A stretch of DNA of 56,320 bases from Luminiphilus sp. GTDB taxonomy: Bacteria > Pseudomonadota > Gammaproteobacteria > Pseudomonadales > Halieaceae. A program made the translations under genes and the position numbers. Under the pieces are notes generated by a model. The model was given only the letters and a program-made list of their open reading frames with translations, was not told where the DNA came from and made no database searches. Location of the stretch: positions 1 to 56,320 of the forward strand of contig JADHQG010000002.1 in assembly GCA_016778045.1 (NCBI GenBank). The letters run 5' to 3'. Shown one piece after another: positions 39,291-44,134 of this stretch. Positions within the stretch are counted from its first letter, which is position 1, and each line of letters starts with the position of its first letter.

Positions 39291-40208
39291 ATGGCTAGTC
39301 GAAAACCTGCGCCCAAAAAGTCCGCACCCAAGAAAAAAGTAGCCGCCAAGAAGGCACCTGCTAAGAAGGCGGCGGTTAAGAAAGCCACTGCGAAGAAGGC
39401 GTCCGTGAAGAAAGCGGTAGCCAAGAAGGCACCTGCAAAGAAAGCGGCCAGTAAAAAAGCGCCGGCTAAGAAAACCGCTGCCAAAAAAGCGCCCGTGAAA
39501 AAAGCGGCAGCCAAGAAAGCACCCGTGAAAAAAGCGGCAGCCAAGAAACCACCCACGAAGAAAGCTACTGCGAAGAAGGCGCCCGTGAAAAAAACGGCAG
39601 TCAAGAAGGCGCCTGCGAAGAAAGCACCTGCCAAAAAAGCGCCCGTGAAAAAAGCCGCGGTCAAGAAGGCACCTGCGAAGAAAGCACCTGCCAAAAAAGC
39701 GCCCGTAAAGAAAGCGGTAACGAAGACAGCACCTGCCAAAAAATCAGCCACCAAAAAGTCGCCTGCAAAACTCGCCCGAGCCGTTGGACAAATTCAGAAG
39801 TTTGATGACTTCAAGCCTTACAAACCGGGGCGCGGCGAGAGCTACATGAACGACGAGCAACTCGAGCACTTCCGCGGCATCTTGTTGAATTGGCGTGGCG
39901 AGTTGGTCGATGAAGTGACACGCACCGTCTCGCATATGAAGGACGAGGCCGCTAACTTCCCTGACCCCGCGGACCGTGCCACACAAGAAGAGGAGTTCAG
40001 CCTTGAGCTCCGCACGCGCGATCGCGAACGCAAGCTGATCAAAAAAATCGACTCCACGCTTGATCGCCTAAAGAACGACGACTATGGATACTGCGACGCC
40101 TGCGGGATCGAAATCGGCATCCAGCGTCTTGAAGCGCGGCCCACCGCGACGCTCTGTATCGACTGTAAAACGCTCGCCGAGATTAAGGAGCGCCAGGAGC
40201 TGGGTTGA
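39291..40208 (+). CDS. dksA: RNA polymerase-binding transcription factor DksA with long Lys/Ala/Pro-rich N-terminal tail
   Basis: C-terminus [37 protein letters not shown]...[39 protein letters not shown] is canonical DksA. About 160 N-terminal residues are KKAPAKKA-type repeats. Confidence 0.95.
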
Positions 40209-41074
40209 GCACCTCCCTGACCGCCTCTGACATCACACCTTATCGAGGGCGTTTCGCGCCCTCGCCCACCGGCCCGCTTCATGCAGGCTCATTAGTTGCC
40301 GCCCTTGCAAGCTTTTTGGATGCCCGGCATGCCGGCGGTGCCTGGGTGCTGCGCATTGACGATATTGACCCCCCAAGAGCGGTGGCAGGAAGCGTTGGCC
40401 TGATTACCGAGGCATTGTCAGCGCATGACCTGCATTGGGATGGCGCTGTGCGGTATCAGTCACAGTCAAGTGATGCTTATCACCGAGCGCTTCAGCAGTT
40501 GGCAGAAACGGGGGCGCTGTTTCGCTGTCGGTGCACGCGATCGACCCTCAGCGACCAGGGCACCTGCGGCCAGCGCTGCGAACAACGCGCTATTTCTGAT
40601 GACGAGCCGCACAGCTTACGGGTGAGGTTTGATGCTGCCCAGCTGGCAGGGTTTGCGGACCGATTTCAGGGCATGCAGCCCGTCACCCCCGAAACAGCCG
40701 TCGCCGATTTCATTGTCAGACGCCGCGACGGATTATTTGCTTATCAGCTGGCTGCAGCAGTAGATGATGCTCAGCCGCACTTCACCCATATCGTGCGAGG
40801 CGCCGACCTTCTGGACTCAACCCACCGGCAACGCTGGTTGATGCAGCTGCTAGGTCAGACATCACCCTGTTACGGTCATATCGCGGTGATGCATGACGGC
40901 GACGGCAACAAGCTCAGTAAGCAAAACGGAGCGCCTGAATTGGATCTCGCGCGCACCCCAGACAATCTGCGCGACTGTTTAACGCATCTTCATCAGCCCG
41001 CTCCGCCCAGTTCGGCGCGCGAGAACGGCGAGATACTGGACTACGCGATAGAGCACTGGACCCTGCACATTTAA
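40205..41074 (+). CDS. gluQ: Glutamyl-Q tRNA(Asp) synthetase
   Basis: [47 protein letters not shown]; directly after dksA. Confidence 0.95.
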
Positions 41075-41173
41075 CTCGCTCGTTGACACAATGTGTTACT
41101 TTTTCACTCGCACAGTGACATGAGTGCGGTAACGTTTCACTCTGTTTAAAGACGAGGCCATCGCCGAGGTTTT

Positions 41174-42532
41174 ATGCGAGTACATTTCATAGAGAACGAG
41201 TCCGATTTTCGCGATGCGCTCTGCCAGCACTTAATCGGGCTGGGCGTTCAGTTGGACAGCGCCGACCCGCCGGGAATTGCGGACATCAGTAGTTGGCGTC
41301 CCGATGCCGATGTCGTGGTGTTGGGCCAGCACCCTCTGGCAAGCCATTTGGCCCAGCTCAGCAGGTGTGTTTGGCCTGCACCCGTGGCGGTTTTACTCCC
41401 CATTTACGATACCCGGCAAATCATGCAGGCCGCTAAGGCGGGAGCCATAGACGTCTTCGATCGCACAGCACCCCCGGCCGACATTGCAGCTTGGCTGCAT
41501 GATCTCTGTCAGCAGCAATCGCAGCTAGCGTCGGGCGATCGCGCACAATCGCATTACGTTAGCGAATCCTGTTCAGCGATGCAGGCGCTGCAAGATCAGA
41601 TTGAGCGCGTCGCCCGAACCGACTCCACCGTTCTGATTGTCGGCGAGACGGGAACCGGTAAAGAACTGGCAGCGAGAGAGGTTCATCGCATTGGCGCCAG
41701 AGCCGACCGTCCTGTAATCACTGTTAACTGCGCCGCTATTCCGGATACGCTCATCGAATCAGAGTTGTTCGGTTATGAGAAAGGTGCCTTTACGGGCGCC
41801 ACCAGTAATCGCGTGGGCCTTATCGAAGCCGCGGACGGCGGCACATTGTTCCTGGACGAAATTGGCGAACTGCCGCTGGCGGCCCAGGCGCGGCTTCTCC
41901 GCTTTATGCAGGAAGGTGAGATTCGTCGCATCGGCTCGGTAACCAGCAAAAAAGTGGATGTGCGCCTGATTTGTGCCACCCACCGCGACCTTGGCGCACT
42001 CGCCAGCAGAAACGAGTTTCGACAGGATCTCTTTTACCGCATCGATGTACTGAGACTGGATATTCCGCCGCTGCGCGAGCGTGGCGACGACGTGCTCGCC
42101 ATGGCCAACTGGTTCATCCAGCAACAGGCACACAAACTTGGCACCCCGGCAAAACCTTTATCAAAGACCAGTCAGACACTGGTGACACAGCACCATTGGC
42201 CGGGCAACGTTCGGGAACTGCAAAATGTGATCGAGCGAGCGCTGGTCATGTCGACTGGGCCAGCCCTGCAGTTGAGCCTGTCGGCCGCTGCTGCACCTCC
42301 TGCCATCAGAAAAGGGCATCCCACAGAGGCGACTCAGCCCAGCGCATCCGCTGGCGCCCCCGACTCCGAAGAGGAACTGTCGCTGGAAGACTACTTTCAG
42401 CGATTTGTGCTGGAGCATCAGGACGCGATGAACGAGACTGAATTGGCACAAAAACTCGGTATCAGTAGGAAATGCCTGTGGGAACGGAGACAGCGATTTG
42501 GCCTCCCGCGGCAAAAGCAGAAGCGCGCCTGA
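41174..42532 (+). CDS. Sigma-54-dependent NtrC-family regulator, CbrB-like, degenerate receiver domain
   Basis: VGETGTGKELAAREVH, ESELFGYEKGAFTGATSN (GAFTGA), GGTLFLDEIGELPL, HHWPGNVRELQNVIERAL, C-terminal Fis HTH. Syntenic position of cbrB, between gluQ and pcnB. Confidence 0.9.
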   Translation: MRVHFIENESDFRDALCQHLIGLGVQLDSADPPGIADISSWRPDADVVVLGQHPLASHLAQLSRCVWPAPVAVLLPIYDTRQIMQAAKAGAIDVFDRTAPPADIAAWLHDLCQQQSQLASGDRAQSHYVSESCSAMQALQDQIERVARTDSTVLIVGETGTGKELAAREVHRIGARADRPVITVNCAAIPDTLIESELFGYEKGAFTGATSNRVGLIEAADGGTLFLDEIGELPLAAQARLLRFMQEGEIRRIGSVTSKKVDVRLICATHRDLGALASRNEFRQDLFYRIDVLRLDIPPLRERGDDVLAMANWFIQQQAHKLGTPAKPLSKTSQTLVTQHHWPGNVRELQNVIERALVMSTGPALQLSLSAAAAPPAIRKGHPTEATQPSASAGAPDSEEELSLEDYFQRFVLEHQDAMNETELAQKLGISRKCLWERRQRFGLPRQKQKRA

Positions 42533-42550
42533 GAGCTGATAAAGAAGTGA

Positions 42551-42585
42551 AAATCTGTAACACTGCAGTGCAAATCTGTAACACT
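42551..42585. repeat. Two direct copies of AAATCTGTAACACT, candidate activator binding sites
   Basis: 42551-42564 and 42572-42585 are identical 14-mers spaced 21 bp start to start, with palindrome CACTGCAGTG (42561-42570) overlapping the first copy. Confidence 0.75.
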
Positions 42586-42657
42586 ATGCTGGGCGAAAAA
42601 TCTATAATGCCGGTCAAAAATTGGACAACTAAATGTTTTTAAAGGTTTTTTACGAAG

Positions 42658-42673
42658 TGGCATGTGCCCTGCT
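42658..42673 (+). promoter_or_regulatory. Sigma-54 promoter (-24/-12)
   Basis: TGGCATGTGCCCTGCT: GG-N10-GC spacing, close to TGGCAYG-N4-TTGCW. Confidence 0.8.
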
Positions 42674-42683
42674 GTCTTTAATG

Positions 42684-42789
42684 CAGAGCCGAAATAACAA
42701 TAACTGGCCCAATAAGAAAAACGATGTCATAACGGACCTGGGTGGGGAAGGCGACTTCCCCATGTTTCGTTATGGGGTGCCTTTTTTTT
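42684..42789 (+). ncRNA. Candidate CrcZ-like Hfq/Crc-sequestering sRNA
   Basis: Sigma-54 promoter just upstream, AANAANAA motifs at 42693-42703 and 42711-42718, terminator with T8 at 42782-42789, in the Pseudomonas crcZ position (cbrB-crcZ-pcnB). Confidence 0.6.
42744..42789 (+). terminator. Hairpins plus U-tract between regulator and pcnB
   Basis: GGGGAAG-GCGA-CTTCCCC (42744-42761) and overlapping CCCCAT-N8-ATGGGG (42758-42777), then TGCC and T8. Confidence 0.82.
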
Positions 42790-42862
42790 CGGCCCCTCAA
42801 CTACTCTCCGTATTTGCCCGGCTTAGCGCCACTTTACTGCTGACGCAGCCGGTGCCTCGATT

Positions 42863-44134
42863 TTGACTGAGGCGCTGCAAAAAACACGTTTTGCCAGCGA
42901 GGACTTTTCGCCCGGCGCACTGCAAGTCGTCGAGCGACTGCAAGCACACGGCCACGAGGCCTATGTGGTGGGCGGAGCCATTCGCGATCTACTGCTCGGC
43001 AATCGGCCCAAAGATTTTGACGTCGCCACGGATGCCACACCAGAGCAGATAAAACAGTGCTTCCGCAACGCCAGAATTATTGGCAAGCGCTTTCAAATTG
43101 TCCACGTCCGCGCGGGTCGAGAAATTATCGAGGTCACTACGTTTCGACGCGGGCACGAAGCCAATCCTGCTGGCCAAGCCGCTCAGGCAAGTCAATCCGG
43201 GCGACTGCTCCGAGACAACGTTTATGGAACGCTTAAAGAAGACGCGCAACGGCGCGACCTCACCATCAATGCGCTGTATTACGACACTTCAACGCATCAA
43301 CTGATCGACCATCTTGGTGGCTGCGCCGATGTTGCCGACCGCAGCATCCGAATCATCGGCGATCCAGCAGACCGCTATCGAGAAGACCCGGTACGTATGC
43401 TGCGTGTACTCAGGTTTGGCGCTCGATTGCAGTTTGAGCTGGCGTCGGACACTGCCGCGGCCATCGCTGAGCATGGACATTTATTGCGCGACATCCCGCC
43501 AGCAAGACTATTCGATGAATGGTTAAAGCTCTTCATGAATGGATGCTCCGCACCGACTTTTTCGCTGCTGCATCAATTTGGGCTGATCACCCAACTGATG
43601 GGAGAAGAGGTTACGGACGCATTGGATATTCAACGTGCTAGCTCCCTAAGAATGCTCGCCCTCAGTAATACCGACCAACGTGTTGCCGACGAGCGCCCTG
43701 TGACCCCCGCCTTTCTGCTGGCAGCGCTTTATTGGCCGGCAACTGAACGGTCCGCCCGCCAGCTTTCTGATCGGGGTGAGTCGCCCATTCCCGCGATGCA
43801 CAGCGCCGGCCAGCAAATCGTTGCGGCGGCTTGCCAGTACCTCGCTATTCCCAAGCGGTTCTCGCTAGCCATGAGGGATATCTGGGATCTGCAGCCCAGA
43901 CTTGAGCGAATGCAACCCAAAAAAGTGAAGGATTTGCTCGCGCATCGGTGGTTCCGTGCGGCTTTCGACCTCCGTTTGCTTCGCGAGGAAACCCATGACT
44001 TGGATAACCAATGCAGTCACTTTTGGGCCGCGGCGCAAAAACAACACCCGGAGCTGGTGGGTAGTGCGCGCCAGCGACGGGACGATGCACCAAGGCGTGG
44101 GCCACGGCCCCGTCGCAGGCCTCGCAACGCATGA
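42863..44134 (+). CDS. pcnB: Poly(A) polymerase I
   Basis: AYVVGGAIRDLLLGNRPKDFDVATDATPEQIKQCFRNARIIGKRFQIVHV; TTG start. Confidence 0.95.
   Translation: MTEALQKTRFASEDFSPGALQVVERLQAHGHEAYVVGGAIRDLLLGNRPKDFDVATDATPEQIKQCFRNARIIGKRFQIVHVRAGREIIEVTTFRRGHEANPAGQAAQASQSGRLLRDNVYGTLKEDAQRRDLTINALYYDTSTHQLIDHLGGCADVADRSIRIIGDPADRYREDPVRMLRVLRFGARLQFELASDTAAAIAEHGHLLRDIPPARLFDEWLKLFMNGCSAPTFSLLHQFGLITQLMGEEVTDALDIQRASSLRMLALSNTDQRVADERPVTPAFLLAALYWPATERSARQLSDRGESPIPAMHSAGQQIVAAACQYLAIPKRFSLAMRDIWDLQPRLERMQPKKVKDLLAHRWFRAAFDLRLLREETHDLDNQCSHFWAAAQKQHPELVGSARQRRDDAPRRGPRPRRRPRNA

Follow-up and report, generated by a model that had tools for sequence, protein, structure and literature searches.

CrcZ of Pseudomonas is a sigma-54-dependent decoy sRNA that is encoded between cbrB and pcnB and activated by CbrB. 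CrcY and CrcX are further CbrB-driven RNAs of Pseudomonas. The long CrcZ engages Hfq, with or without Crc, and thereby relieves repression in Pseudomonas (PMC4063720, PMC6422490). CbrB of P. putida has GTAACA as its reverse half-site; its sites lack palindromic symmetry and occupy a single face of the helix, with 20-25 bp from centre to centre (PMC6296734). The CbrAB system has been called exclusive to Pseudomonadaceae and described only in Pseudomonas and Azotobacter, as has the cbrA-cbrB-crcZ arrangement (PMC8871633, PMC6296734). A survey of openly accessible journal papers found no CrcZ for other genera.

The cbrB-pcnB locus and its promoter

The DNA analysed here (the window) is a stretch of 56,320 nucleotides from a Luminiphilus (Halieaceae) genome of 1.87 Mb that is 68% complete. 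Its forward strand carries gluQ (40205-41074), directly followed by a gene for a CbrB-type sigma-54 activator of 452 amino acid residues (41174-42532; Pfam Sigma54_activat, E=2.5e-68), and pcnB for poly(A) polymerase (42863-44134; TIGR01942, 449.8 bits, over the cut-off), the conserved 3' neighbour. Between cbrB and pcnB, which is the position of CrcZ, we found two half-sites, a -24/-12 promoter and a predicted RNA that carries two ARN tracts and a hairpin, all on the same strand. The gene order dksA-gluQ-cbrB-RNA-pcnB is common to 22 Luminiphilus genomes. The DksA reading frame of the window (39291-40208) has an N-terminal extension of about 170 residues with histone-H1-like Lys/Ala/Pro repeats (NCBIfam histone H1-like match); long DksA reading frames are found at the same place in HTCC2080, Luminiphilus MAGs and Halioglobus.

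The sigma-54 promoter TGGCATGTGCCCTGCT spans 42658-42673, exactly where an earlier note, made from the sequence alone, had placed it, and this -24/-12 element is conserved in 22 of 22 Luminiphilus genomes. A consensus of this type is weak when taken alone, with 0.46 matches expected in the window and at least one match in 36 of 100 shuffles. The strongest local signal, which that note had missed, is a pair of predicted CbrB half-sites with the published sequence GTAACA (PMC6296734), R1 at 42557-42562 (conserved in all 22 genomes) and R2 at 42578-42583, which follows R1 at 21 nt and precedes the first base of the -24/-12 element by 80 nt. The window contains a single pair with such spacing, and 100 shuffles gave none. 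Throughout the 22 genomes R1 and R2 are 21-23 nt apart. In 21 of them R2 is 79-81 nt from the promoter, and in the remaining one the distance is longer by about a helical turn (90 nt). In the Luminiphilus alignment the sequence between the conserved elements drifts while the elements themselves are kept at near-constant distances, and we therefore consider the observation confirmed.

Both the sigma-54 promoter and the properly spaced R1 and R2 are features of CrcZ. A scan for its F1 half-site (TGTTAC), as GTTAC[CT], gave no match in the promoter regions listed for the 22 Luminiphilus genomes; other families have it. GTTACT and GTAACG sites are also present upstream of cbrB (window positions of about 41085-41140), where they may constitute an autoregulatory CbrB site.

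The compact RNA and its relation to CrcZ

The predicted RNA (42683-42772) would start at about 42683-42685 and most likely has its 3' end at about 42761-42772. Motif scanning and alignment identified two ARN tracts, AAUAACAAUAA at 42693-42703 and AAUAAGAAAAA at 42711-42721, each comprising two overlapping AANAANAA matches and, as we read it, four triplets. The tracts are conserved in the genus, and the presence of several such CA motifs is another property of CrcZ. Three of the four matches (starting at 42693, 42696 and 42711) had been recognized previously, and the one at 42714 had been overlooked. With only two ARN tracts, one RNA would accommodate at most about two Hfq hexamers. A weak GCC/GGC stem near the 5' end (42688-42708), predicted by the consensus fold without covariation support, would expose tract 1 in its loop.

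When relatives are aligned, as the earlier note had advised, the -24/-12 element, the ARN tracts and the GGGGAAG/CTTCCCC hairpin are conserved. The run of eight T residues at 42782-42789, which the note had taken for the terminator, is indeed there, but unlike the hairpin it is not conserved in relatives; the 3' end is thus most likely immediately behind the hairpin. In all 22 Luminiphilus genomes 79-81 nt separate the predicted +1 from the end of the hairpin, and the overall length of the RNA is probably about 80-90 nt rather than the 106 nt initially proposed.

We consider it likely that the locus specifies a compact CrcZ-type decoy RNA that is controlled by CbrB and sigma-54 and relieves Hfq/Crc repression. 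Binding of CbrB to the two GTAACA half-sites, about 80 bp upstream, would drive the sigma-54 promoter, and a shortage of good carbon would lead to production of the RNA of about 80-90 nt. Its two ARN tracts would hold the distal face of Hfq (together with Crc where present), and catabolic mRNAs would be freed from Hfq/Crc repression. Since each RNA molecule would offer about two Hfq sites, either many copies would be required or the free Hfq/Crc pool on which it acts would have to be smaller. It may represent a natural minimal decoy that bears on the lowest number of Hfq/Crc sites that is still sufficient. Synteny, promoter anatomy and conservation all support the original proposal of a compact CrcZ-type RNA outside Pseudomonas that is governed by sigma-54 and a CbrB-like activator.

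The RNA shares with CrcZ of Pseudomonas and Azotobacter (RF01675) the position between cbrB and pcnB, a sigma-54 promoter with GTAACA half-sites at matching distances, several ARN/CA tracts and a terminal two-part hairpin. It differs in length (about 80-90 nt versus about 400 nt) and in the number of overlapping AANAANAA matches (3-5 in the compact RNA versus 11-16 in CrcZ); furthermore, the central core is missing, the 3' element and its loop are different, F1 was not found and the genome is without CbrA. The Rfam CrcZ search suggested in the earlier note does match the window RNA, but at 14.9 bits (E=0.22) it falls far below the 95-bit cut-off; this match is chance-level by itself and we did not accept it as evidence on its own. 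Being far below the Rfam threshold and devoid of the Pseudomonas central core, the window RNA is a compact positional and presumably functional counterpart of CrcZ and not a formal member of the family.

Across the order the RNAs form a homologous series that leads to Pseudomonas. The Rfam cut-off is passed in 14 of 298 genomes, 11 of them in one family (305-368 bits), presumably Pseudomonadaceae, and three in a second family (101-111 bits). In genomes with high scores CrcZ has cbrB and pcnB as neighbours and is preceded by F1, R1 and R2, with R1 and R2 about 22 nt apart and about 82 nt between R2 and -24. Scores then fall stepwise through intermediate families, from 368 down to 15 bits, and the loci fetched from below the cut-off are likewise flanked by cbrB and pcnB. 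A covariance model built from 21 Luminiphilus sequences scores 106.9 bits at the window RNA and detects one copy in 53 of 58 genomes of the genus; all 18 genomes with a completeness of 90% or more have it. Across the order, this model finds the RNA in 45 of 298 genomes, representing 22 of 120 sampled genera; cbrB is upstream and pcnB downstream in 29 of 30 fetched loci. Among the matches listed for a pattern scan are Haliea, Halioglobus, Pseudohaliea, Chromatocurvus and Kineobactrum, as well as Spongiibacter, Zhongshania, Dasania, Oceanicoccus, Litorivivens, HTCC2143 and others. A few matches of the same scan in distant phyla (Streptomyces, Amycolatopsis, Bifidobacterium and others) were taken as chance.

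Related RNAs are found at the cbrB-pcnB position in many families of Pseudomonadales, up to CrcZ of Pseudomonas; with this series the range of the CbrB-sRNA-pcnB circuit grows to include many of the order's families, among them marine heterotrophs. This suggests that a circuit for the control of food choice is much more widespread than the Pseudomonas family, and that it operates here with an RNA of about 80-90 bases and after loss of the sensor kinase. Three loci (L029, L050 and L056) have two units in tandem between cbrB and pcnB, both equipped with half-sites and a sigma-54 promoter. Such promoter-plus-RNA units parallel CrcY and CrcX, whereas a single copy is present in the window and in every other Luminiphilus genome with a match. 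Two promoter-plus-module units were also seen in L101, on a contig labelled Verrucomicrobiaceae; this contig is probably misbinned, or the units were acquired by transfer.

Partner proteins and the absence of CbrA

The window CbrB is about 50% identical to the CbrB encoded beside Pseudomonas-type CrcZ, and its sequence reveals an AAA+ domain with GAFTGA and a C-terminal helix-turn-helix. It has no match to a Pfam receiver domain, and alignment shows that its receiver is degenerate, with the phospho-acceptor Asp changed to Gly and the active-site Lys replaced. Among 22 Luminiphilus CbrBs, Gly together with loss of the active-site Lys is found in eight (including the window), Glu in six and the original Asp in eight; thus, the phospho-acceptor is Gly or Glu in 14 of 22 genomes. 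A change of Asp to Glu can mimic phosphorylation. In the HTCC2080 group (L010-L015) the residue is Glu in six out of six.

No full-length CbrA was found in 25 Luminiphilus genomes, seven of which are 93-100% complete. In contrast, a full CbrA of about 1000 amino acid residues is kept in the wider order (11 of 14 other families): in other Halieaceae and related families it is encoded between gluQ and cbrB, or beside cbrB, and comprises PAS, HisKA and HATPase domains and an N-terminal transporter-like part that falls short of E<0.001 in Pfam. Luminiphilus has the CbrB orthologue beside pcnB, as in the described CbrA/CbrB system, but CbrA is gone and the CbrB receiver is degenerate or carries the Asp to Glu change in most species. 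The absence of CbrA and the decay of the receiver, both missed by the earlier note, are new here. Pseudomonas CbrB was reported to be barely dependent on phosphorylation (PMC6296734), which makes it plausible that the loss of CbrA is tolerated without loss of activity. Because CbrA is lost and the CbrB receiver is decaying, the level of the RNA in Luminiphilus is probably set by the amount of CbrB or by another input, or is largely constitutive. The genus offers a natural experiment: the activator and the RNA were retained although the sensor kinase disappeared.

A more elaborate scheme can be built on these observations, and we offer it only tentatively. It posits a kinase-free circuit, in which CbrB acts as a one-component regulator (or, with Asp changed to Glu, as a permanently active-like one), the RNA serves as a sponge with about two Hfq sites, and its ACCUGGRY loop has a second activity, either base-pairing or protein binding, that CrcZ of Pseudomonas lacks.

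The window genome contains both hfq and rpoN, which, like the Crc-type protein of the genus, speaks for the decoy reading. The miaA-hfq-hflX genes are present in it in two diverged copies (L233 = G000 C15; L234 = G000 C99), which points to a bin composed of two related strains. Luminiphilus has two ExoIII-family proteins, one with the catalytic residues kept and another of Crc type; the yardstick for comparing these residues was what we take to be the E. coli XthA sequence. PDB entry 4jg3 served to verify the P. aeruginosa Crc query. Of 25 genomes of the genus, 22 yielded the Crc-type protein, and among 19 sequences checked GDxN is lost in all 19 and the Asp of SDH in all but one (L217). It resembles Crc in being a full-length ExoIII-like relative (36-44% identical) without GDxN and, as a rule, without the SDH residues. 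It differs in that its partnership with Hfq is putative and in that the search of the window's own 68%-complete genome returned the catalytic paralogue only.

The surroundings of start codons were scanned for CA motifs over 400 kb of one complete relative (G006; 324 crude gene calls). Eighteen genes had such motifs, compared with about five expected from column shuffles. Approximately ten of the 18 look catabolic or uptake-related, versus about 4-5 of 20 random genes, the labels having been assigned non-blind; the genes from the 18 that look so include SSF, MFS_2, MTTB, BKACE, TauD, GH3, a cyclase, a TPP enzyme and an FMN oxidoreductase. Near start codons of G006, AANAANAA is no commoner than some other A-rich spacings. 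For this reason, and since the labels were not blind, the enrichment at catabolic genes is no more than suggestive.

The 3' module and possible alternative roles for the RNA

In the 3' part of the RNA, according to the fold of 42683-42775, an outer helix is formed by a 5' arm at 42728-42736 and a 3' arm, with a U-rich tail, at 42765-42774. Within it are the near-invariant GACCTGG[A/G][C/T] (GACCTGGGT in the window, 42735-42743; alignment A1), mostly a one-sided internal loop, and an inner hairpin GGGGAAG-GCGA-CTTCCCC (42744-42761), the probable terminator stem according to both fold and alignment. GACCTGG is invariant in the 21 sequences of alignment A1, and no part of the RNA is better conserved than GACCTGG[A/G][C/T]GGGG with the CCCC after it. 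Across genera we collected 148 distinct segments that have the 3' module, with GACCTGG near-invariant, and a sigma-54-like element upstream. RNAalifold detected no compensatory pairs in the genus alone, because the stems are invariant there. In a flank-swap test across families, native flanks had a mean of -4.45 kcal/mol versus -3.57 kcal/mol for swapped ones, and none of 500 swaps was as good. Native flanks thus pair better than swapped ones, which supports an outer helix around the near-invariant one-sided loop.

That the most conserved part of the RNA is its 3' module counts against the decoy reading, which leaves it unexplained, and draws attention to this nearly invariant element. Other points against the decoy are the low Rfam score, the small number of ARN tracts, the missing Crc-type match in the window's incomplete genome and the equal frequency of some other A-rich spacings at start codons. 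A role of the loop in termination, Hfq binding or pairing is possible. If the RNA were mainly a trans-acting, base-pairing, Hfq-dependent sRNA, the ACCUGGRY loop would be its seed and the ARN tracts would serve for Hfq loading only. Such a role would agree with the strong conservation of GACCTGG[A/G][C/T]GGGG and its recurrence in many genera, with a one-sided loop between two helices, the outer of which is kept by compensating changes, and with a second copy of the module downstream in some Halieaceae. However, the element has many G residues and lies right next to the terminator stem, and CrcZ of Pseudomonas has a similar two-part terminal hairpin but a different loop; we therefore regard base-pairing as an unlikely main function.

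It is highly improbable that the Luminiphilus RNA is a decaying relic whose regulation disappeared after the loss of CbrA: CbrA is missing from 25 of 25 genomes, the CbrB receiver has decayed, F1 is missing and the RNA is shortened, but the RNA, its promoter, the half-sites and the ATPase and helix-turn-helix of CbrB remain under strong constraint across species whose CbrBs share only 52-66% identity with that of the window. A cis-acting leader or attenuator of pcnB instead of a free sRNA, as might be imagined for an element that is always upstream of pcnB on the same strand, was rejected as scarcely credible, since the spacer of unconserved or repeated DNA between hairpin and pcnB differs in length by more than 250 nt among members of the genus, and promoter-plus-RNA units occur in tandem in some genomes.

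The second 3' module was observed in several Halieaceae (L036, L096, L104, L132, L139 and others), about 200 nt downstream of the first and with no apparent sigma-54 element nearby; in those Halieaceae both 3' modules may therefore be part of a single transcript.
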